Assembly: GCA_026004195.1 (NCBI GenBank)
Contig: BPIQ01000003.1
Coordinates: 186,001 to 250,000 of the forward strand
DNA length: 64,000 nucleotides
From: Candidatus Binatia bacterium
GTDB lineage: Bacteria; Desulfobacterota; Binatia; HRBIN30; BPIQ01
Reading direction: 5' to 3'
Under the pieces are notes generated by a model. The model ran no database searches, was not told the origin of the DNA, and was given only the letters and a program-made list of their open reading frames with translations. Both the position numbers and the translations under genes were made by a program. Shown piece by piece: positions 24,145 to 39,401 of the stretch (the first letter of the stretch is position 1; every line of letters begins with the position of its first letter).

Positions 24145-24516
24145 CCGGGCGAGAGAGGGTCGGTAAGCCGGATTCTGTGTCCCCTTCTAGAGCTCGAAGG
24201 GGAGAGTGGTCATTCCTCTGGGCCGACGGTTTCCCGCCGGCTCGTTGCGACGACCCGAGGGTTCGCGCGGGCCACGCTTCCCTCTTGTTGGTCTTGCTCC
24301 GGGTGGGGTTTGCCGCACCGGCCGGTCACCCGGCCGGGGATGCCGAGGCACCTTTTCACCGGTACCCGACCCTCGAGGGGCCGGGCCCGTCTCTTTTCTG
24401 TGGCACTTTCCCCGCCTCGCGGCGGGCCGCCGTTAGCGGCCACCCTGCCCTGCGGAGTCCGGACTTTCCTCCCGTGTCTTCCGACACGAGCGACCACTGA
24501 ACCCTCTCTCGCCCGG
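24145..24516 (-). ncRNA. rnpB: RNase P RNA, bacterial class A
   Basis: The catalytic RNA of RNase P, which matures tRNA 5' ends. Ends are set by a perfect 16-base inverted repeat (24145-24160 with 24501-24516) forming helix P1. On the minus strand the 5' conserved region reads GAAAGTCCGGACTCCGC (about 24467-24451) followed by AGGGCAGGGTG. GGTGAAAAGGTG and AGCAAGACCAA lie in the middle, and ACAGAATCCGGCTTA, the 3' conserved region, at about 24177-24163. Together these form the P4 pseudoknot pairing. It starts six bases after the zinc-ribbon gene and may be cotranscribed with it. Confidence 0.95.
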
Positions 24517-25272: not shown

Positions 25273-25345
25273 TGGGCCCACCAGGACTCGAACCTGGGAC
25301 CTACCGGTTATGAGCCGGCAGCTCTGACCGCTGAGCTATGGGCCC
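25273..25345 (-). tRNA. tRNA with CAU anticodon (elongator Met or Ile2)
   Basis: Minus-strand cloverleaf: acceptor GGGCCCA pairs with TGGGCCC, D-arm GCTC/GAGC, anticodon loop CTCATAA, T-arm CCAGG with loop TTCGAGT and CCTGG, discriminator A. The genome reads CCG after the discriminator, so the full CCA is not encoded. CAU may be read as Met or, after lysidine modification, as Ile; C4-G69 and C5-G68 occur in both kinds and do not decide it. Confidence 0.93.
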
Positions 25346-31357: not shown

Positions 31358-31636
31358 TCAGTCGGGCTCGAATTCGAAAGCCAGGCGCGCGCGTTTGGCC
31401 GTATTGCACGCCTTGCACGCCGGGACCACGTTGCCTTTCGTCGACCGGCCGCCCAGGGCGAGCGGGACGACGTGATCCATCGTGAGCTCGTGCGGCGGGA
31501 ACTCGCGGCCACAGTAGTGGCAGCGACGCTCCGCGAGCCGCCTTTTCCACCACGTCGAGCGGCGCAGCTCCCGGGCACGAGCCCTTTCGCGTCGGATGTG
31601 CGCCTCGATCTCGTCGGGGTAGACCCGCTCAGGCAT
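31358..31636 (-). CDS. HNH endonuclease
   Basis: A 92-residue HNH nuclease-fold protein. A helical basic N-terminus leads to a zinc-binding CHYCGREF, the catalytic LTMDHVVPLALGG (DH of the HNH motif), NVVPACKACNTAK with the Asn and the second CxxC. Stand-alone small HNH proteins of this kind are common and mostly uncharacterised. Its start overlaps the end of the upstream kinase-like gene by eight bases, so it is the last gene of that four-gene unit; the 3' ends of this gene and gshB are six bases apart. Confidence 0.87.
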   Translation of the reverse strand: MPERVYPDEIEAHIRRERARARELRRSTWWKRRLAERRCHYCGREFPPHELTMDHVVPLALGGRSTKGNVVPACKACNTAKRARLAFEFEPD

Positions 31637-33248
31637 CGACCGACCTCGTTCGCGCCAGGGCGCGTTCGAGGGCGCTTTCGACCCGCGCGAGAAGCTCGGG
31701 AAGCGGCCGTTCGGTGTCGACGCACAGGTCCGCGTCGCCTTCCCCGGCCGTCAGAGGTTCGTAGCGCGAACGCTGCCGCAAATACACGGACCAGTCGGCG
31801 TCCGAAGGTCCCGCCCCGGCCCGCACCCGCTCCCCCAGGCGGCGGTAGGTGGTCGCCTCCGAACACCGGCACTCCACGGCCACGAAGGGAACCCCGAAGT
31901 CCCGGGCGAGGGCCCGAGCCTCCCCCCGCTCCTGCCGTCGCTGGAACGTCGCGTCGAGGATGACGCCCCTCCCCCGGCCGAGCGCCGCCCTGGCCCGCTC
32001 GAAAAGCGTGGCGTAGGTCCGCGCGCTCATGTCCGGGCCGTAAAGCCAGGGACGATCCTCTTCCCGGCTCGGCTCGTTCGGGGGGAGTCCCGCCAGCTCC
32101 TTTCGCACCTCGTCGGAATTCCAGTGCTCGAAGCCCGTGCGACGCGCGAGCTCCCGGGCGAGCGTCGTCTTGCCGGAGCCGCTGAGCCCGAACACCACGA
32201 CCAGCACGGGACGGTAAGCCCAGGTGAAACGGTAAGCGAGCCGAAAGTGCAGGACGGCGGAATCCCGTGCCCTCGACCTCGCCTCTTCTCCCACTTCCGG
32301 CTCCTCGCTCGCGAGACTCTCCACCTTGCCCCGAATGTAGGCGCGGTGGCACGCAAAAAACGGCCAGAGTCTCGCGACGTCGGCGTCCCCCGCGCGCTCG
32401 GCGTATTCCGCGACGAACGTTTCGGCGAGATCCTCGCGCCCGTGGTAGACGAGGTCCATCGCGAGGAAAGCAACCTCGGCCGCCACGTCGCGGCAGCGAA
32501 AGTCCCTCCGGAATTCGATGCAGTCGTAGATCTGGATCCCGTCCTCGAAACAGACGTGCTCGGCGTGGAGGTCCCCGTGACCTTCCCTCACCCGACCCGT
32601 GCGGCACCGTTCCTCGAGCCAGGGCCGGAACTCCGCGAGAGCCGCGCGGAAAAAAGCACGGATGGCATCGTCGACCCTCGGCTCGACGGTCACCCCGCGA
32701 AACCGGGCGGCCTCGGCGAAGTCCTCCTCCAGGGAAGCGGCGAAGGACTGCGGACTTCCGAACGCGCGAACCTCGGGCCCGCAGTCCGCCGCCTCGTGGA
32801 ACGCCGCGACCTTTTGCGCGAGCCGGCGGAGCATTTCCGGAGTAGCCTCGCCCCGTTCGAGAAGTCGGGCGAGCATCCGCTCGGCGGGCAGGCGCCGCAT
32901 CTCCACGGCGTACTCGACCGCTCCCGGATCGTCGGCGCTCCCGAGGGAAAACCCGGCTTCGCGCCGGCAGATCCCCACGACTCCCCGGTACACGTCCTGC
33001 GTGAGGCGCCGGTTGAGCCGCACTTCTTCCTCGCAGAAGTGGCGGCGGAGCTCGAGCGTGGAAAAATCGAGAAAGGAAAACCGTACCGGTTTTTTCACCT
33101 TGTAGACCTTCTCGCCCGCGAGAAACACGTACGAGGCATGGGTCTGGACGAGGTCCACCCGCTCGGGACGGTGGGGGTAGAAGGCCGGATGCCGCATGGC
33201 CTCGAACCAGGAAGGCAGCGCTCCGAAGCCCGAAGGTCCGGCCGTCAT
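31629..33248 (-). CDS. Bifunctional aminoglycoside-phosphotransferase-like / ATP-binding kinase
   Basis: A 539-residue two-domain protein. Residues ~35-330 form an APH-like kinase fold (COG2187): KVYKVKKPVRFSFLDFSTLE, the Brenner-type motif VREGHGDLHAEHVCFEDG near residue 222 and IQIYDCIEFRRDFRCRDVA (DFG equivalent). Residues ~345-520 are a P-loop NTPase (COG0645) with GLSGSGKTTLARELA near 351 and HWNSDEVRKEL, GVILDATFQRR. Such fusions are widespread and uncharacterised; a nucleotide or small-molecule kinase is likely. ATGA overlap with the HTH gene upstream. Confidence 0.88.
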   Translation of the reverse strand: MTAGPSGFGALPSWFEAMRHPAFYPHRPERVDLVQTHASYVFLAGEKVYKVKKPVRFSFLDFSTLELRRHFCEEEVRLNRRLTQDVYRGVVGICRREAGFSLGSADDPGAVEYAVEMRRLPAERMLARLLERGEATPEMLRRLAQKVAAFHEAADCGPEVRAFGSPQSFAASLEEDFAEAARFRGVTVEPRVDDAIRAFFRAALAEFRPWLEERCRTGRVREGHGDLHAEHVCFEDGIQIYDCIEFRRDFRCRDVAAEVAFLAMDLVYHGREDLAETFVAEYAERAGDADVARLWPFFACHRAYIRGKVESLASEEPEVGEEARSRARDSAVLHFRLAYRFTWAYRPVLVVVFGLSGSGKTTLARELARRTGFEHWNSDEVRKELAGLPPNEPSREEDRPWLYGPDMSARTYATLFERARAALGRGRGVILDATFQRRQERGEARALARDFGVPFVAVECRCSEATTYRRLGERVRAGAGPSDADWSVYLRQRSRYEPLTAGEGDADLCVDTERPLPELLARVESALERALARTRSVDA

Positions 33249-33928: not shown

Positions 33929-34509
33929 GACGGACTTCCTTTCGCGACCAGAAGCTCGAGCGTCTCGAGCAGGGGACCGATTTCTCCGCCGCTGCGGACG
34001 AGGGCCCGGTGTTCGGACGCGAGAAAACCCTCCCGCACCATCTTCTCGAGGAATTCGAGCAGAGGCCGGAAATAACCGCAAACGTCGAGGATCCCGCACG
34101 GCTTCGCCGTGTAACCGAGCTGGGCCCACGTGAGCACTTCGAAGAGCTCGTCCATGGTTCCGAGGCCTCCCGGCAGGGCGAGAAACGCGTCCGCCAGCGC
34201 AGCCATGCGAAGCTTGCGCTCGTGGAGGGTTTCGACCACGTGAAGCTCGGTGAGCCCCCGGTGGGCGAGCTCCCTCGAAACGAGGCCCTTCGGGATCACG
34301 CCGATCACCCGCCCTCCCGCGCCGAGCACGGCGTCGGCCAGGACGCCCATGAGCCCCACGTTCCCGCCTCCGTAGACGAGGCGGACGTCGCGCCGAGCGA
34401 GCTCGCGGCCCACCCGTTCCGCCGCCTCGCGGTAGACGCTCGCGGAGCCGGAGCTCGAACCGCAGAAGACGCAGAGGCTTCGTAGCTGCTTGCCTTCGCC
34501 CGTGGACAC
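33925..34509 (-). CDS. LOG family protein (TIGR00730, Rossmann fold)
   Basis: A 194-residue lysine-decarboxylase-like nucleotide-binding protein. Motifs: LCVFCGSSSGSASVYREAA at the N-terminus, VYGGGNVGLMGVLADAVL, and the LOG signature LPGGLGTMDELFEVLTW. Family members hydrolyse cytokinin or purine ribotides at the base-ribose bond; the substrate in this host is unknown. GTG 34509, with GGGA eight bases upstream, gives the usual length. First gene of the LOG-HTH-kinase-HNH unit and divergent from the aminotransferase gene. Confidence 0.9.
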   Translation of the reverse strand: MSTGEGKQLRSLCVFCGSSSGSASVYREAAERVGRELARRDVRLVYGGGNVGLMGVLADAVLGAGGRVIGVIPKGLVSRELAHRGLTELHVVETLHERKLRMAALADAFLALPGGLGTMDELFEVLTWAQLGYTAKPCGILDVCGYFRPLLEFLEKMVREGFLASEHRALVRSGGEIGPLLETLELLVAKGSPS

Positions 34510-34564
34510 CGAGCTTTCCCTTCGTGTCGATTTAGGGTTAAGGAGCTCCGGGTACAAGCGGATC

Positions 34565-35803
34565 ATGGAAACCACCGATCGGGTCTTCGAACGATTCTCG
34601 CTTTTCGTCTCGCCTTTCAAAGCCGACGTGTGGTCTTCCCTCGGAGTGCGCTTCGTCATGGGCCGGCGGGAGGGGAGCTGGTTCTGGGACCTCGAGGGAA
34701 AGCGCCGCATCCTCGATTGCCACGGCAACGGGGGGACGTACAACCTCGGCCACCGCCACCCCGCGGTGGTCTCGGCTCTACGTCGAGCGCTCGAGGAATT
34801 CGACATCGGAAACCACCACTTCGTCAGCGCTGCCCGGGCCAGGCTGGCGGAGCGGCTCGCGGGCTGCCTGCCGGGCGACCTGCAGTACACGGTGTTCGGC
34901 GTGAGCGGCGGAGAAGCCGTCGACACGGCCATCAAGGTGGCCCGGGGTTTCACCGGCCGTCCCGGAATCGTGAGCGCGGTCGGGGGGTATCACGGTCACA
35001 CCGGCTTCGCTCTCGCGGCGGGCGATGCCCGGTACAGGGAACCGTTCGGGCCCCTCGCGCCCGGGTTCACGCAGGTCCCCTTCGGCGACCTCGAAGCACT
35101 GGAAAGGGCGGTCGACCGGACGACGGCAGCGGTCCTGTTCGAAACCGTTCCCGCCACGCTCGGAATGCGCGTCCCGACCCCCGACTTCTTTCCGCGGGTA
35201 CGCGACCTCTGCGACCGCGCGGGGGCGCTCCTGATCGTCGACGAGGTCCAGACGGGGCTCGGCAGAACCGGGAAGATGTGGGCGATCGAGTGGTACGACG
35301 TGGTCCCCGACATCCTGGTGACCGGAAAGGGTCTGAGCGGCGGCCTCTACCCCATCACCGCGACCTGCCTCCGCGCACCGTTGATCGAGTTTTTCCGTCG
35401 CGACCCTTTCATCCACGTGAGCACCTTCGGAGGCTCCGAGCTCGGCTGCCTCGTCGCTCTGGCGATGCTCGACGTCGTCCAGGCACCGGGATTTCTCGAG
35501 CGAGTCCGGAAGCTCGCGGACTGGTACGCGGGCGAGCTCGAACGGCTCCGGAAAAAACACGCTTCGGTGCTCGTCGAGGTTCGGCAGCTCGGCCTTTTTC
35601 TCGGGCTCCGCTACCGGAGCGCCGAAGCCGGCCCGCGCATGACCAAACTCTGCTTCGACGAGGGGCTTTTCGCGCTCTTTGCCGCGAACGACCCTTCCGT
35701 CCAGCAATTCTTGCCTGCTTTGACGATTTCCGACGACGAAGCCCGTTTTTCGATCGAAGTGCTCGACACTTGTCTCTCGCGGTTGGAACGAAGCCCGGAC
35801 TGA
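34565..35803 (+). CDS. Class III PLP-dependent aminotransferase
   Basis: A 412-residue fold-type I aminotransferase (ornithine/GABA/glutamate-semialdehyde group). Seen: LDCHGNGGTYNLGHRHPAVV, FGVSGGEAVDTAIKVARG (phosphate site), GGYHGHTGFALAAGD, LLIVDEVQTGLGRTGKMW, and the PLP lysine K255 in LVTGKGLSGGLYPITA. The substrate cannot be read from sequence; GxHGxTGF resembles omega-amino acid transaminases. ATG 34565 was used because the motif spacing fits. The following gene overlaps or abuts its 3' end, so the two are likely coupled. Confidence 0.9.
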   Translation: METTDRVFERFSLFVSPFKADVWSSLGVRFVMGRREGSWFWDLEGKRRILDCHGNGGTYNLGHRHPAVVSALRRALEEFDIGNHHFVSAARARLAERLAGCLPGDLQYTVFGVSGGEAVDTAIKVARGFTGRPGIVSAVGGYHGHTGFALAAGDARYREPFGPLAPGFTQVPFGDLEALERAVDRTTAAVLFETVPATLGMRVPTPDFFPRVRDLCDRAGALLIVDEVQTGLGRTGKMWAIEWYDVVPDILVTGKGLSGGLYPITATCLRAPLIEFFRRDPFIHVSTFGGSELGCLVALAMLDVVQAPGFLERVRKLADWYAGELERLRKKHASVLVEVRQLGLFLGLRYRSAEAGPRMTKLCFDEGLFALFAANDPSVQQFLPALTISDDEARFSIEVLDTCLSRLERSPD

Positions 35804-37086
35804 GCCCTGGCGACGTTGCCTCGCGGCTGCTCGAAATCGAAAGAAGTCTCGGGGAGCGGCGAAGTTTCGCCCGAGCCCTCGCCCGAGGACGGGCCGGCTC
35901 GCGCGACTCTCGGGCCCTTCCCACGTGGCGGGCAGCGGAAGAAGCCTCTCGTCTCGTCCTCTCTCTCGACGGGGACGTCCTCCTCCGCGTCCTGCGCACC
36001 TGGATTCCCAACCCGAAGCACCTGCGGTTCCTTCTCGCTCTCTGGGACGGCGTGCGCGCGTGTGCCGGGGAGGTGACGGCAACACGGAGCGGCCCCCGGG
36101 CGGTACCGGCCCCTCCGCCCGAAGCGCTTTTGCGAGGTCTTCGCCTCGAACGGACGTTCTTCCACGAGCTTCGCCGTAGAGCCCGAGCACCGCTCCGCCT
36201 CGTCGTCTGCGGATTCGGCGAGGTTACGCGGACCGTGGCGCTCGAGCGAGCGGCTTCCCCGTTCGCGAGCGTCGTGCCAGCCCCCGCGCGGGTGTACAAG
36301 AAACTTCCGCCTTTCCCCGGAGTCGAGATGGCCCGGGCCTACGCCGGTACCTATCGGGAATACAACCGAAGACTCCTCGAGGCGGGTCTCCGGATCCCCG
36401 ATCCCGGCGCCGGAATCCTCGTGCGGGGCGACGGGTCCGCCGTGATCGTGTGCACGCAGAGACGCCTCCAGGCTTCGTCGATCGCCAAGGACATCCTCCT
36501 GCGCTCGAACGAAAGCGAAGCTTCGGACCTTTTCGGTCGCGTGCTCGAGGAAATCCGCAAGGTCTTTCTCTACAACCGCTCCCAGGGGAGCGGAGGGGTC
36601 GTGCTCGGACTCGACGCGCAAATCCCGAACTGGGCCCTCGAGAACGGGGCGGGACGCCGGACCCTCTGGTACCTCGACACCGGCACTCCGATGATGCGCC
36701 GGGGCGGACGGGACTGCTTGCCGCTGTCTTTCTACCTCCAGGGCTTGCCCGGCTTCGCCCGGCCCTGGGTCCGGCCCCTGGCTCGCCGGGTCCTCGACCG
36801 CTATTTCGACCTTCCCACGATCCTTCTCGACTTTCTGGCGAACGTGGCGATCCACGGGCGGCCCGACCTCGTCGAGCCGCTGCTCCCGCAGGCGAACGGG
36901 TTCCTCCGCGAGTGCGGCTACCACCCCTGGAGCCTCGAGCAAGTCGACCGCTACCGAAAACGAGACGTCGCCACGTGGCGTCTGGTCCGGAGTCTCCGCC
37001 AGCTCGACGTGTGGCTCTCGGGACGGCAGAGCCTCCGGCAGGCGACGAAAAACATCGCCGCCATCTACCGGAACCCGATCTTTTGA
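35770..37086 (+). CDS. Uncharacterised protein with predicted kinase-like fold (DUF6206-like)
   Basis: Up to 438 residues; no firm family match beyond a resemblance to DUF6206 from memory. Several landmarks of a protein-kinase-like fold appear in order: a glycine loop VVCGFGEVTRTVAL (about residues 147-160), VYKK with candidate beta-3 lysine K177, a helix with acidic residues (TYREYNRRLLEAG), GLDAQIPNWAL with D282 and N287 spaced like a catalytic loop, and YLDTGTPMM with D303 in the DFG position. The start is uncertain: TTG 35770 overlaps the aminotransferase by 34 bases; CTG at 35800 (CTGA overlap) is possible. No membrane segments. Confidence 0.65.
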   Translation: MSLAVGTKPGLSPGDVASRLLEIERSLGERRSFARALARGRAGSRDSRALPTWRAAEEASRLVLSLDGDVLLRVLRTWIPNPKHLRFLLALWDGVRACAGEVTATRSGPRAVPAPPPEALLRGLRLERTFFHELRRRARAPLRLVVCGFGEVTRTVALERAASPFASVVPAPARVYKKLPPFPGVEMARAYAGTYREYNRRLLEAGLRIPDPGAGILVRGDGSAVIVCTQRRLQASSIAKDILLRSNESEASDLFGRVLEEIRKVFLYNRSQGSGGVVLGLDAQIPNWALENGAGRRTLWYLDTGTPMMRRGGRDCLPLSFYLQGLPGFARPWVRPLARRVLDRYFDLPTILLDFLANVAIHGRPDLVEPLLPQANGFLRECGYHPWSLEQVDRYRKRDVATWRLVRSLRQLDVWLSGRQSLRQATKNIAAIYRNPIF

Positions 37087-37120: not shown

Positions 37121-37173
37121 TTCCGGTTCGGGGGGAGCGAACTCCCCGGAGTTTTTCGCGAAGCGGAGGCAAA

Positions 37174-38454
37174 ATGGCAAACGAAACGACCCGTTCCGTC
37201 GTCGTCGCCGGAGGAGGCCTGGCAGGGCTCGCCGTGGGTACTCTCCTGGCTCGGCGCGGCAAAAAAGTCGCCCTTTTCGAGAGGTCCGAGCGGCTCGGGG
37301 GCCGAGCTTCTTCGGTCGAAAAGGGAGGGCACGTGCTGAACTGGGGGCCTCATGCCCTCTACCGGGGAGGCTGCGCGGCCCGGGTTCTCCGAGCACTCGG
37401 CGCCTTTCCGGCCGGTGGGGTTCCCCGGGTCTCGGGAGCCTACGCCTTCGCGCGGGGTCGACTCCATACCTTTCCGGGAGGGTTCCTCTCCCTCCTCACC
37501 ACCGGGCTTTTCGGCCCGGCGGAAAAGCTCGAAGCGGCGCGCATCCTCTCGCGGATATCTCGGCAGGGCTCCGCGTGCCGGGAGGGGAAAAGCATCGGGG
37601 AGTGGGCAGAAGAACACGTCCGCCACCCCCGCGTCCGGTCCTTCGTTTTCGCCCTGGTGCGGCTCGCCACGTACGCGAGCGACCCGAAGCAGAGCGCAGA
37701 CGCCGCGCTCGGCCAGCTCCGGCTCGCTCTGCGCGAGAACGTTCTCTACGTGGACGGCGGCTGGCAAGCGATCGTGGACCGGCTCCGCGAACTTGCGCTA
37801 GTCTCGGGCGTGGAGCTCCGGACCGGCATGGCGGTGCGCAGCGTCGAACGCGCGGGGGCCTCTTTCCGGGTTCGCCTCGGAGACGGCAGCTCCCTTTCCG
37901 CCGACGCGGTCGTGCTCGCGATGGCACGAAGGGAAGCGTTCCGGGTCTTCCCCCCTGCGACCGCCGGGACCGAGGAAGTACCCGAAGTGCGCGCAGCGTG
38001 CCTCGACCTGGCGCTTTCGACCCTGCCACGACCCGGGGCGACGTTCGCCCTCGGCATCGACCGTCCGCTCTACTTCTCCGTGCACTCCGCGTTCGCCCGT
38101 CTCGCACCGGACGGGGGCGCGACGATCCACGTCGCGCGTTATCTCTCCTCCGAGGAAAGACCGGAGGCGCAGAGCATCCGGAGCGAACTCGAAAGCTTCG
38201 CCGATCTCGTGCAACCGGGGTGGCGCCGTGCCGCCGTCGAGCGCCGCTTCCTTCCCTCCATGACGGTCTCCGGCTGGCTTCCGACTCCCGCGACCGGTTC
38301 CCTCGGGGGTCGCCCCGGCGTTCGCGTCGACGGAGTCCCGGGTCTCTACCGTTGCGGCGACTGGGTGGGACCCGAGGGGCTGCTTTCGGATGCCGTCTTC
38401 GCCAGTGCGGAAGCCGTGGCGCGGGAAATCTCGGGAGAAGCCCCGACGCCGTGA
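37174..38454 (+). CDS. FAD/NAD(P)-dependent oxidoreductase, phytoene-desaturase-like
   Basis: A 426-residue flavin amine-oxidase/desaturase-fold protein. Dinucleotide-binding start VVVAGGGLAGLAVGTLLARRG (residues ~9-29) with LFERSERLGGRASS; FAD-binding C-terminal motif LYRCGDWVGPEGLLSDAVFASAEAVA. The middle (DGGWQAIVDRLRELA, then VRSVERAG) matches desaturase/protoporphyrinogen oxidase relatives. No carotenoid genes are nearby. It overlaps the following sigma factor gene by GTGA. ECF41 sigma genes usually neighbour a carboxymuconolactone decarboxylase, oxidoreductase or epimerase, so this is the likely target gene. Confidence 0.87.
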   Translation: MANETTRSVVVAGGGLAGLAVGTLLARRGKKVALFERSERLGGRASSVEKGGHVLNWGPHALYRGGCAARVLRALGAFPAGGVPRVSGAYAFARGRLHTFPGGFLSLLTTGLFGPAEKLEAARILSRISRQGSACREGKSIGEWAEEHVRHPRVRSFVFALVRLATYASDPKQSADAALGQLRLALRENVLYVDGGWQAIVDRLRELALVSGVELRTGMAVRSVERAGASFRVRLGDGSSLSADAVVLAMARREAFRVFPPATAGTEEVPEVRAACLDLALSTLPRPGATFALGIDRPLYFSVHSAFARLAPDGGATIHVARYLSSEERPEAQSIRSELESFADLVQPGWRRAAVERRFLPSMTVSGWLPTPATGSLGGRPGVRVDGVPGLYRCGDWVGPEGLLSDAVFASAEAVAREISGEAPTP

Positions 38455-39401
38455 GAACCTCCCCGCGTCCCCCGTCTCCACCGGCTTTCGCCCGGGCCTT
38501 TCGCGATCACGCGAAGTTCCTCTGGGGACTCTCCTACAGGATGACGGGCTCGGCTGCCGACGCGGACGACGTCGTGCAGGAAACCTTCGCCCGCGCCCTC
38601 ACCTTCCGGCCTCGAAAACTCGACCGCCCCTGGCTCCAGCGCGTGGCGCTCAACCTGAGCCTCGACCTGCTCCGCCGGCGCAAGCGGAGAGCGTACGTGG
38701 GACCGTGGCTCCCCCAACCCGTCGACACCTCGGACGAACCGCCCGCGTTCGAGCCGGAAGCGGGGTCCGAGCGGAGCACCGAGGGGCGCTACGAACTCGT
38801 CGAAAGTCTTTCCTACGCGTTTCTGCTCGCCCTCGAGGTCCTCACCCCCAAGCAACGTGCCGTCCTCCTGCTGCGCGACGTCTTCGACTACTCGGTGGAG
38901 CAAACGGCACGCGCTCTCGACACGACTCCGGCCAGCGTGAAAACCCTCCACCACCGCGCACGGCGTGCGATGCAGGGGTACGACGAGAAACGGTGCCGTC
39001 CCACGGTCGAGGCGCGAAGGCGCGCGAGAGGAGCCCTCGAGCGACTCGTCTCCGCTCTCGCTCGCAGGGACCTCCGGCAGGTCGAGGCTCTGCTTTCCGA
39101 AGACGTGGTCTCGCTCAGCGACGGAGGCAAGCACGTTCCCGCGGCCCGCAGGCCGGTCACCGGCAGGGAGCGAGTGGCAAGGCTCTGGACGGGGCTCGCC
39201 GCGCGCCAACTTCCCTCTCGGGTCGAAATCCGGATCCTCAACGGTATGCCCGCGGCCGTCCTCCGGGGGACGAACCCCGACCCCATCGTGCTCCGGGTCG
39301 AGGTCGGTGGAGACGGCAAGGTCCGGGAAATTCACTCGATCCTGGCGCCCGAGAAGGTCGCGACGCTCGCTCCGACCCGGAAGCGGTGGTGGGACGCTTG
39401 A
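38451..39401 (+). CDS. ECF sigma factor, ECF41/SigJ type with SnoaL-like C-terminal domain
   Basis: A 316-residue extracytoplasmic-function sigma factor. Region 2: LSYRMTGSAADADDVVQETF, LDRPWLQRVALNLSLDLLR. WLPQP follows (the ECF41 WLPEP-type motif). Region 4: LTPKQRAVLLLRDVFDYSVE and TTPASVKTLHHRARRAM. The last ~120 residues are a SnoaL-like domain with the SDGGK motif and NGMPAAVLRG, which in ECF41 proteins touches the core and controls activity instead of an anti-sigma factor. GTG start overlaps the oxidoreductase stop. Confidence 0.9.
   Translation: MRTSPRPPSPPAFARAFRDHAKFLWGLSYRMTGSAADADDVVQETFARALTFRPRKLDRPWLQRVALNLSLDLLRRRKRRAYVGPWLPQPVDTSDEPPAFEPEAGSERSTEGRYELVESLSYAFLLALEVLTPKQRAVLLLRDVFDYSVEQTARALDTTPASVKTLHHRARRAMQGYDEKRCRPTVEARRRARGALERLVSALARRDLRQVEALLSEDVVSLSDGGKHVPAARRPVTGRERVARLWTGLAARQLPSRVEIRILNGMPAAVLRGTNPDPIVLRVEVGGDGKVREIHSILAPEKVATLAPTRKRWWDA

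Follow-up and report, generated by a model that had tools for sequence, protein, structure and literature searches.

The DNA analysed here (the window) is a stretch of 64,000 nucleotides (nt) from Candidatus Binatia bacterium (assembly GCA_026004195.1, contig BPIQ01000003.1, positions 186,001 to 250,000). We focused on two genes of its forward strand: a gene of the family DUF6206 (PF19709), in which a first-pass annotation had seen the landmarks of a divergent kinase fold, and the gene directly upstream, which codes for a class III pyridoxal 5'-phosphate (PLP) enzyme. Their coordinates are as follows.

34490..35803, + strand: class III PLP enzyme (annotated type aminotransferase), the partner gene, given as the longest open reading frame (ORF) from TTG 34490

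35770..37086, + strand: DUF6206 (PF19709) gene, kinase-like protein of 438 amino acids (aa), a long form that carries a helical region at its N-terminus (residues ~13-137)

In the ORF list of the window the DUF6206 gene runs from a TTG start at 35770 to a TGA stop at 37086, and it overlaps the PLP-enzyme gene by 34 nt. Third-codon-position GC of this frame is 0.65-0.95 from about position 35930 on and weaker 5' of that point. TTG35770 is the sole in-frame ATG, GTG or TTG within 35470-36051, and the earlier remark that the gene has no clear ribosome-binding start was a fair one, with a GAAG standing 10 nt 5' of this codon. For the PLP enzyme, comparison with homologues makes ATG 34565 a likelier start than TTG 34490. 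The resemblance to DUF6206 noted in the first-pass annotation was borne out by Pfam: the protein scored 84.2 bits against PF19709 (E 1.1e-23), well over the curated cut-off of 30.4, with residues 187-413 matching positions 50-270 of 271. The gene is single-copy in the window genome and no NCBIfam model matched its product. A search of an open literature library returned no paper mentioning DUF6206 or PF19709, and the family is not assigned to the kinase fold in the sources searched.

When the window protein alone was used as the query, no relatives were found in genome contigs, viral contigs or plasmids. The Pfam profile gave 19 homologues from samples of 39, 148 and 395 genomes, and these were aligned with the window protein (alignment A1, 20 rows; G336 was left out, being below the Pfam cut-off). 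A wider search with A1 yielded 345 relatives confirmed by tblastn in genome contigs. The best 80 of the 345, ranked by similarity to the window protein, supplied the loci for the study of gene context and for a second alignment; by their record titles they come from Archaeoglobi, Asgard archaea, deltaproteobacteria, Spirochaetes, Chloroflexi, Bacteroidota, Acidobacteria and others. The second alignment consists of 78 relatives and the window protein (79 rows), two frame-split sequences (L082, L089) having been left out. Two further alignments drew on the 78 readable relatives, A2 using 64 of them and A3 using 50; five truncated or doubtful-start sequences were omitted from them, and the remaining omissions were near-duplicates chosen by hand and, for A3, long forms.

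Residues of the kinase type are conserved throughout the DUF6206 family. In the window they lie at the following places.

36211..36234, + strand: glycine loop GFGEVTRT, residues 148-155, spanning model strands 142-149 and 154-160; G148, G150 and E151 are family-invariant

36298..36300, + strand: K177, equivalent of the beta-3 lysine, inside model strand 174-178; invariant

36613..36630, + strand: D282-x4-N287, equivalent of the catalytic loop, between helix 248-272 and strand 288-293; invariant

36676..36678, + strand: D303, equivalent of the metal-binding DFG Asp, opening D-T-G/S-T-P, directly after strand 296-301; invariant

The landmarks named in the first-pass annotation (GFGEVTRT at 148-155, K177/K178 ending VYKK, D282/N287 and D303) were all found in place when the codons were checked, and the proposed test of whether K177, D282, N287 and D303 are conserved across homologues came out in their favour. 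Eleven residues are invariant in 20/20 rows of A1, namely G148, G150, E151, K177, Y198, Q230, D282, N287, W288, D303 and P307. In the 79-row alignment D282, Q284, N287, W288, D303 and P307 are invariant in 79/79 rows and K177 in all 77 ungapped rows, a conservation which is partly by construction because this set was retrieved with patterns holding the glycine loop or the D282-W288 motif. K177 and D303 lie outside those patterns and are free of that bias, and A1 was not pattern-retrieved. Thus, the family possesses both a glycine-rich loop with a beta-3 lysine (G148, G150, K177) and an Asp-x4-Asn motif with a DFG-type metal Asp (D282, N287, D303). The glycine of the proposed DTG in the DFG position is not conserved: it occurs in 9/79 rows and serine in 60/79, and the family motif is D-T-S-T-P.

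The predicted structures point to the same fold. The AlphaFold2 model of the window protein, computed with a 65-sequence alignment, had a predicted local distance difference test score (pLDDT) of 85.0 and a predicted template modelling score (pTM) of 0.74. It begins its kinase-like part with strands 142-149, 154-160 and 174-178 (with K177), helix 185-205 and strands 213-218 and 224-231. Helix 248-272 leads to the D282 loop, which is followed by strands 288-293 and 296-301; D303 comes next, and the C-lobe is helical. In this predicted model the elements run in kinase order and the molecule is two-lobed. All 50 of the Foldseek matches listed (of 1167; best E 5.1e-4) are kinases, pseudokinases or kinase complexes. 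Superposition with VIA-align, which answers the question raised in the first-pass annotation in favour of a kinase-like model, gave Z 12.0 with human PRPK (root-mean-square deviation 3.5, 181 aligned of 232), 11.6 with APH(3')-Ia, 11.5 with Rio1, 10.8 with the microcompartment aminopropanol kinase 6ef6 and 10.2 with ethanolamine kinase 2qg7. The microcompartment pair to which the aminopropanol kinase belongs includes a phospho-lyase. A second model, for an Archaeoglobus homologue of 301 aa, made no use of the window sequence, was of higher quality (pLDDT 94.1, pTM 0.91) and has its elements in kinase order too; it had 1888 Foldseek matches, 372 of them at E<=0.001, and the 50 listed were again all of the kinase fold, with VIA-align Z of 11.8 for PRPK and 11.3 for amicoumacin kinase. 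In the VIA-align listings 9fqr_Xr (Archaeoglobus model) and the pre-40S rows (both models) carry names of complexes and not of kinases. The predicted models therefore support a kinase fold for DUF6206, one that is far in sequence from known families.

The pairing of DUF6206 with the PLP enzyme occurs in bacteria and archaea. By a strict rule, an ORF for this enzyme lies directly upstream on the same strand in 69/80 loci, although the choice of the best 80 may favour such an arrangement; the distances range from a 44 nt overlap to a 241 nt gap, most of them within a few tens of bases. The coupling to the aminotransferase suggested earlier from this one locus is thus borne out, and more strongly than could then be known. 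By tblastn coordinates the enzyme is upstream in five further loci (L082, L087, L089, L091, L106), in L117 and L128 a contig edge leaves just its tail, and L076 starts at a contig edge. An apparent 807-aa fusion in L091 was rejected, as there the PLP-enzyme gene and an ordinary DUF6206 gene simply overlap in different frames. Among the homologues found with the Pfam profile the enzyme is adjacent in 12/19. The tree distances of the two proteins are correlated (r 0.64 over 65 pairs, with 0/2000 permutations as high), and the Chloroflexi loci L062, L107 and L110, with which the window DUF6206 groups in a tree without support values, are also the nearest to the window PLP enzyme.

Co-occurrence was assessed in the 395-genome phylum sample, in which the window's own class is thinly represented. 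DUF6206 was present in 18 genomes when searched with the A5 profile and in 14 with the Pfam profile over its cut-off, so its absence depends on the search; G271 was excluded (a 43-residue match with four stops). The PLP enzyme was present in 19 genomes, with a query from G013 at E<=1e-90, a cut-off picked after seeing the scores. It occurs in 18/18 DUF6206 genomes and in 1/377 others (Fisher p 3e-30), a value which overstates the association because the 18 genomes fall in seven families and are not independent samples. The draws behind the two counts were matched by size (395) and shared handles. The genes are side by side in 14/18 genomes and unlinked in G023, G160, G197 and G260. Within the window's class, 6/8 DUF6206 genomes carry the PLP enzyme with its signature (described below).

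We also examined the chemistry to be expected of the partner enzyme, which matches the class III profile Aminotran_3 with 276.7 bits. Its residues were mapped against the E. coli putrescine aminotransferase YgjG and followed through 70 DUF6206-paired PLP-enzyme sequences. Three positions stand out.

35156..35158, + strand: T223 of the PLP enzyme, aligned with the second Glu of EPIQGEGG (YgjG); Thr in 70/70

35327..35329, + strand: K280, at the PLP-lysine position; Lys in 70/70

35705..35707, + strand: Q406, aligned with the Arg of TIRIEPPL (YgjG); Gln in 68/70, Lys in 2/70

We take K280 to be the PLP lysine. In omega-transaminases a Glu/Arg pair (E235/R413 in ornithine aminotransferase) binds 2-oxoglutarate or glutamate, and phospho-lyases are not known to have the Glu235/Arg413 pair. 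The pair is absent from the partner enzyme. The branch carries the signature D[IV]GNH..., E-x-x-P-A-T-x-G and V-x-Q, or its K variant, and the T/Q signature was found as well in cousins that are paired with APH-family kinases or stand alone, and in two copies on rhizobial plasmids. Both Glu and Arg are kept by the six paralogues compared; two of these belong to the window genome, and the other four lie next to permease-like genes or to one another. Class III is not confined to transaminases: it includes lyases annotated as such, for example PbfA (PMC8154272).

In a number of loci a known kinase family occupies the place of DUF6206. The survey covered 15 loci with a signature PLP enzyme and no adjacent DUF6206, and in 6/15 an APH-family phosphotransferase (PF01636, 81-98 bits) lies downstream of the same PLP-enzyme subfamily, within ~130 nt of the tblastn match. 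These are a plasmid of Pseudomonas sp. MPC6 and the genomes G013, G008, G023, G098 and G093, of which G098 is the sole genome of the phylum sample with the PLP enzyme and without DUF6206. The survey also included two rhizobial plasmid loci with a phosphonate cluster and G260, where only 527 nt are visible downstream; one of the non-APH loci has transposase-interrupted surroundings, and in a Burkholderia plasmid variant the PLP enzyme is followed by an aldehyde-dehydrogenase-like ORF (named by eye). In G467 a member of the APH-paired subfamily is followed by DUF6206. The APH family consists mostly of small-molecule kinases. DUF6206 and a known kinase family share one place, and this exchange is the best evidence for the role of DUF6206.

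We propose that DUF6206 is an ATP-dependent small-molecule kinase which works with the upstream class III PLP enzyme, much as hydroxylysine kinase works with its phospho-lyase, and we put the probability of this reading at about 0.6. In the scheme, which is modelled on that pair, DUF6206 would phosphorylate the hydroxyl of an amino-alcohol-type metabolite using ATP, and the PLP enzyme would act on the phosphorylated amine, probably by an elimination that releases phosphate and ammonia and yields a carbonyl compound. The parts of the scheme are of unequal strength. Kinase activity of DUF6206 is highly likely, and its substrate is probably a small molecule rather than a protein; the evidence leans towards its acting before the PLP enzyme, and phospho-lyase chemistry of the latter may be suggested only tentatively.

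Several observations weigh against this proposal. With regard to the fold, the Foldseek TM-scores are low for both models (0.2-0.5), the six matches of A1 in a profile search of the Protein Data Bank (PDB) were at chance level and included no kinase, and the window protein matched DUF6206 alone in Pfam up to E 1, with no kinase family and hence no APH (PF01636) among the matches. Against 30 APH domains from related genomes hhalign returned a probability of 0.3%, similar to the negative control, and the kinase claim consequently rests on the predicted fold, the motif positions and the genome context. The acidic residues noted earlier in the helix were not conserved, the best being E197 (52/79); no acidic column in residues 183-206 exceeds 52/79, so that the classical alpha-C glutamate is missing; a glutamate of the glycine loop (E151) is invariant instead. 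For this reason we claim the fold from predicted structure and not membership of a classical kinase family. The window protein is itself divergent and has none of K361, E362, Y396 and S286, which are kept in 78/79 rows.

As to the partner, the closest relationship of the PLP enzyme within class III is not to phospho-lyases: it scores 228 bits to putrescine aminotransferase and 135 to the ethanolamine-phosphate phospho-lyase 6tor (PDB). As the enzyme lies nearer to true transaminases by overall score, a lyase step is no more than the guess we favour. The loss of Glu/Arg is not unique to the branch either, since a distant plasmid enzyme (L194) has neither residue. Likewise, the pairing is strong yet not absolute, and it is weakest in the window's class: G108 and G109, whose proteins are the closest relatives of the window DUF6206 within that class (38%), have DUF6206 but lack a PLP-enzyme orthologue (best 38%), and G004 has a PLP enzyme of 71% identity without DUF6206 and with no downstream-adjacent ORF of at least 150 aa. 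Three of the 80 loci (L114, L122, L124) have no PLP-enzyme neighbour by tblastn, and no kinase lies just 3' of the PLP enzyme in G004, G096, G097, G160 and G197. In G023 and G093 the APH gene adjoins the PLP enzyme and DUF6206 is elsewhere, so co-occurrence there need not mean cooperation.

The alternative that survives best, though we regard it as unlikely, is a true kinase at work after or beside an ordinary transamination: the PLP enzyme would be a transaminase that uses an unusual amino acceptor, and DUF6206 would phosphorylate its product or another intermediate of the pathway. The enzyme does score best against transaminases, the aldehyde-dehydrogenase-like ORF of the Burkholderia plasmid would fit any aldehyde-producing reaction, and the five genomes without a kinase just downstream (G004, G096, G097, G160, G197) are in keeping with it. 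What speaks against this alternative is the loss of Glu/Arg (T223 in 70/70, Q406 in 68/70) where the transaminase-type paralogues compared keep them, together with the swapping of DUF6206 for APH kinases.

A different and rather improbable explanation concerns the window copy only, which could have lost or changed the activity of its family and become a pseudokinase or an enzyme of new specificity. It sits on the visibly longest DUF6206 branch (mean distance 3.52 vs 2.13 overall, in the tree without support values) while its PLP enzyme is just above average (1.59 vs 1.39), and to this must be added the four lost residues K361, E362, Y396 and S286. Nevertheless, it retains K177, D282, N287, D303, G148, G150, E151, Q230 and W288, and the adjacent partner gene retains T223, Q406 and K280. 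In comparison with the family it is a long form, in which ~140 residues precede the first kinase strand. The N-terminal helical region of the long form is also found in Chloroflexi, Spirochaetes and others. In the long-form group (L062, L107, L110, L055, L054, L064, L070, L092), compared over window residues 13-137, a stretch at about residues 66-95 looks shared.

We consider it quite doubtful that DUF6206 is a regulatory or protein kinase of the Bud32/RIO kind which modifies or controls the PLP enzyme. PRPK/Bud32 and Rio1 are among the top structural matches and the gene pair is tightly linked, often overlapping; the replacement of DUF6206 by APH-family phosphotransferases beside the same PLP-enzyme subfamily speaks against such a role.

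Downstream of the DUF6206 gene the window has the following features.

37127..37150, + strand: terminator-like hairpin with GTTTTT after it, in the gap that separates DUF6206 from the FAD gene; it may end a two-gene transcript

37174-39401, + strand: flavin adenine dinucleotide (FAD) amine-oxidoreductase-like gene, then an overlapping gene for an extracytoplasmic function (ECF) sigma factor with a SnoaL-like C-terminal domain (ECF41-like)

That DUF6206 belongs to this FAD-oxidoreductase/sigma-factor unit, on the same strand and with its FAD gene 87 nt away, and not to the PLP enzyme, is highly improbable, since tblastn at E 1e-6 gave no match to the FAD protein in any of the 100 DUF6206 context loci and the hairpin stands between the genes, the latter being a weak argument (5 terminator-like sites were found in the region vs 4.6 expected). 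We thus rejected the ECF41 unit as a partner; it is not a conserved neighbour and is local only.

A second candidate was a Peptidase_C69/secernin-like gene, seen in 20/100 stretches (the window and 99 loci; Pfam was run on two). It often starts with MCDT and stands beside or near the pair, as in L119:5385-6599, L120:6739-8055 and 18 other stretches; the window genome has one unlinked copy. We left it out of the module because it occurs in 18/39 DUF6206-negative genomes as well as in 16/20 DUF6206-positive ones. Neighbour matches to 'LOG' were discarded, being mostly antisense of the PLP-enzyme gene. A few genes upstream of the pair, a 539-aa ORF (31632-33248, - strand) has a C-terminal AAA_33 nucleotide-kinase domain; in its N-terminal half HGDLHAEH...YDCIEF resembles by eye an APH-type catalytic loop, with no Pfam match there. 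The - strand also carries a bacterial RNase P RNA of class A (24148-24509) and a tRNA gene (25273-25345).

PLP-enzyme cousins with the T/Q signature were seen on plasmids of Phyllobacterium (L196:4971-6257) and Mesorhizobium (L197:4947-6236), where they follow a peptide-type ATP-binding cassette (ABC) transporter and a gene of the alkaline-phosphatase family; the Phyllobacterium copy is also near DUF1045 and phnF. The idea that they are PbfA was rejected, NF049939 being absent at E 1e-55, and they are possibly an undescribed phosphonate enzyme.

If our proposal is true, it would assign a catalytic class and a partner to DUF6206, a family of archaea and several bacterial phyla, and would mark a branch of genes routinely called aminotransferases as probably something other than ordinary transaminases. 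Both proteins together would point to a metabolic step on a phosphorylated amine. It is conceivable, though we would not lean on it, that a new APH-interchangeable kinase family and an unrecognised class III branch make up an ancient kinase/phospho-lyase pathway for an amino alcohol, spread over Archaeoglobi, Asgard archaea and several bacterial phyla. On that reading, finding this branch in the phosphonate cluster too (L196, L197) would suggest that all its members handle amines bearing phosphoryl or phosphonyl groups.

Compared with known systems, DUF6206 has its top structural matches in PRPK/Bud32 and RIO (PRPK Z 12.0, A. fulgidus Rio1 Z 11.5), from which it differs by an identity of 13-15% over the aligned part, by the lack of a Pfam RIO match and by its metabolic gene context. 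With APH (PF01636) it shares the predicted fold (APH(3')-Ia, Z 11.6) and the genomic place beside the same PLP-enzyme subfamily, but neither a Pfam match nor profile-profile similarity. PbfA, the (R)-1-hydroxy-2-aminoethylphosphonate ammonia-lyase (NF049939), is like the partner enzyme a class III protein, and PMC8154272 presents it as a lyase annotated as a transaminase; the window PLP enzyme reaches 224 bits with a cut-off of 525 and is not PbfA. Another parallel is HYKK with PHYKPL, which PMC5200902 describes as a pathway of a kinase plus a phospho-lyase, and the aminopropanol kinase 6ef6 is a structural match (Z 10.8); DUF6206 is another kinase family, and its partner scores 135 bits to 6tor vs 228 to putrescine aminotransferase. 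The arrangement of a kinase plus a class III PLP enzyme is already known; what sets this pair apart is DUF6206, a probable kinase family that the databases searched do not list as one.

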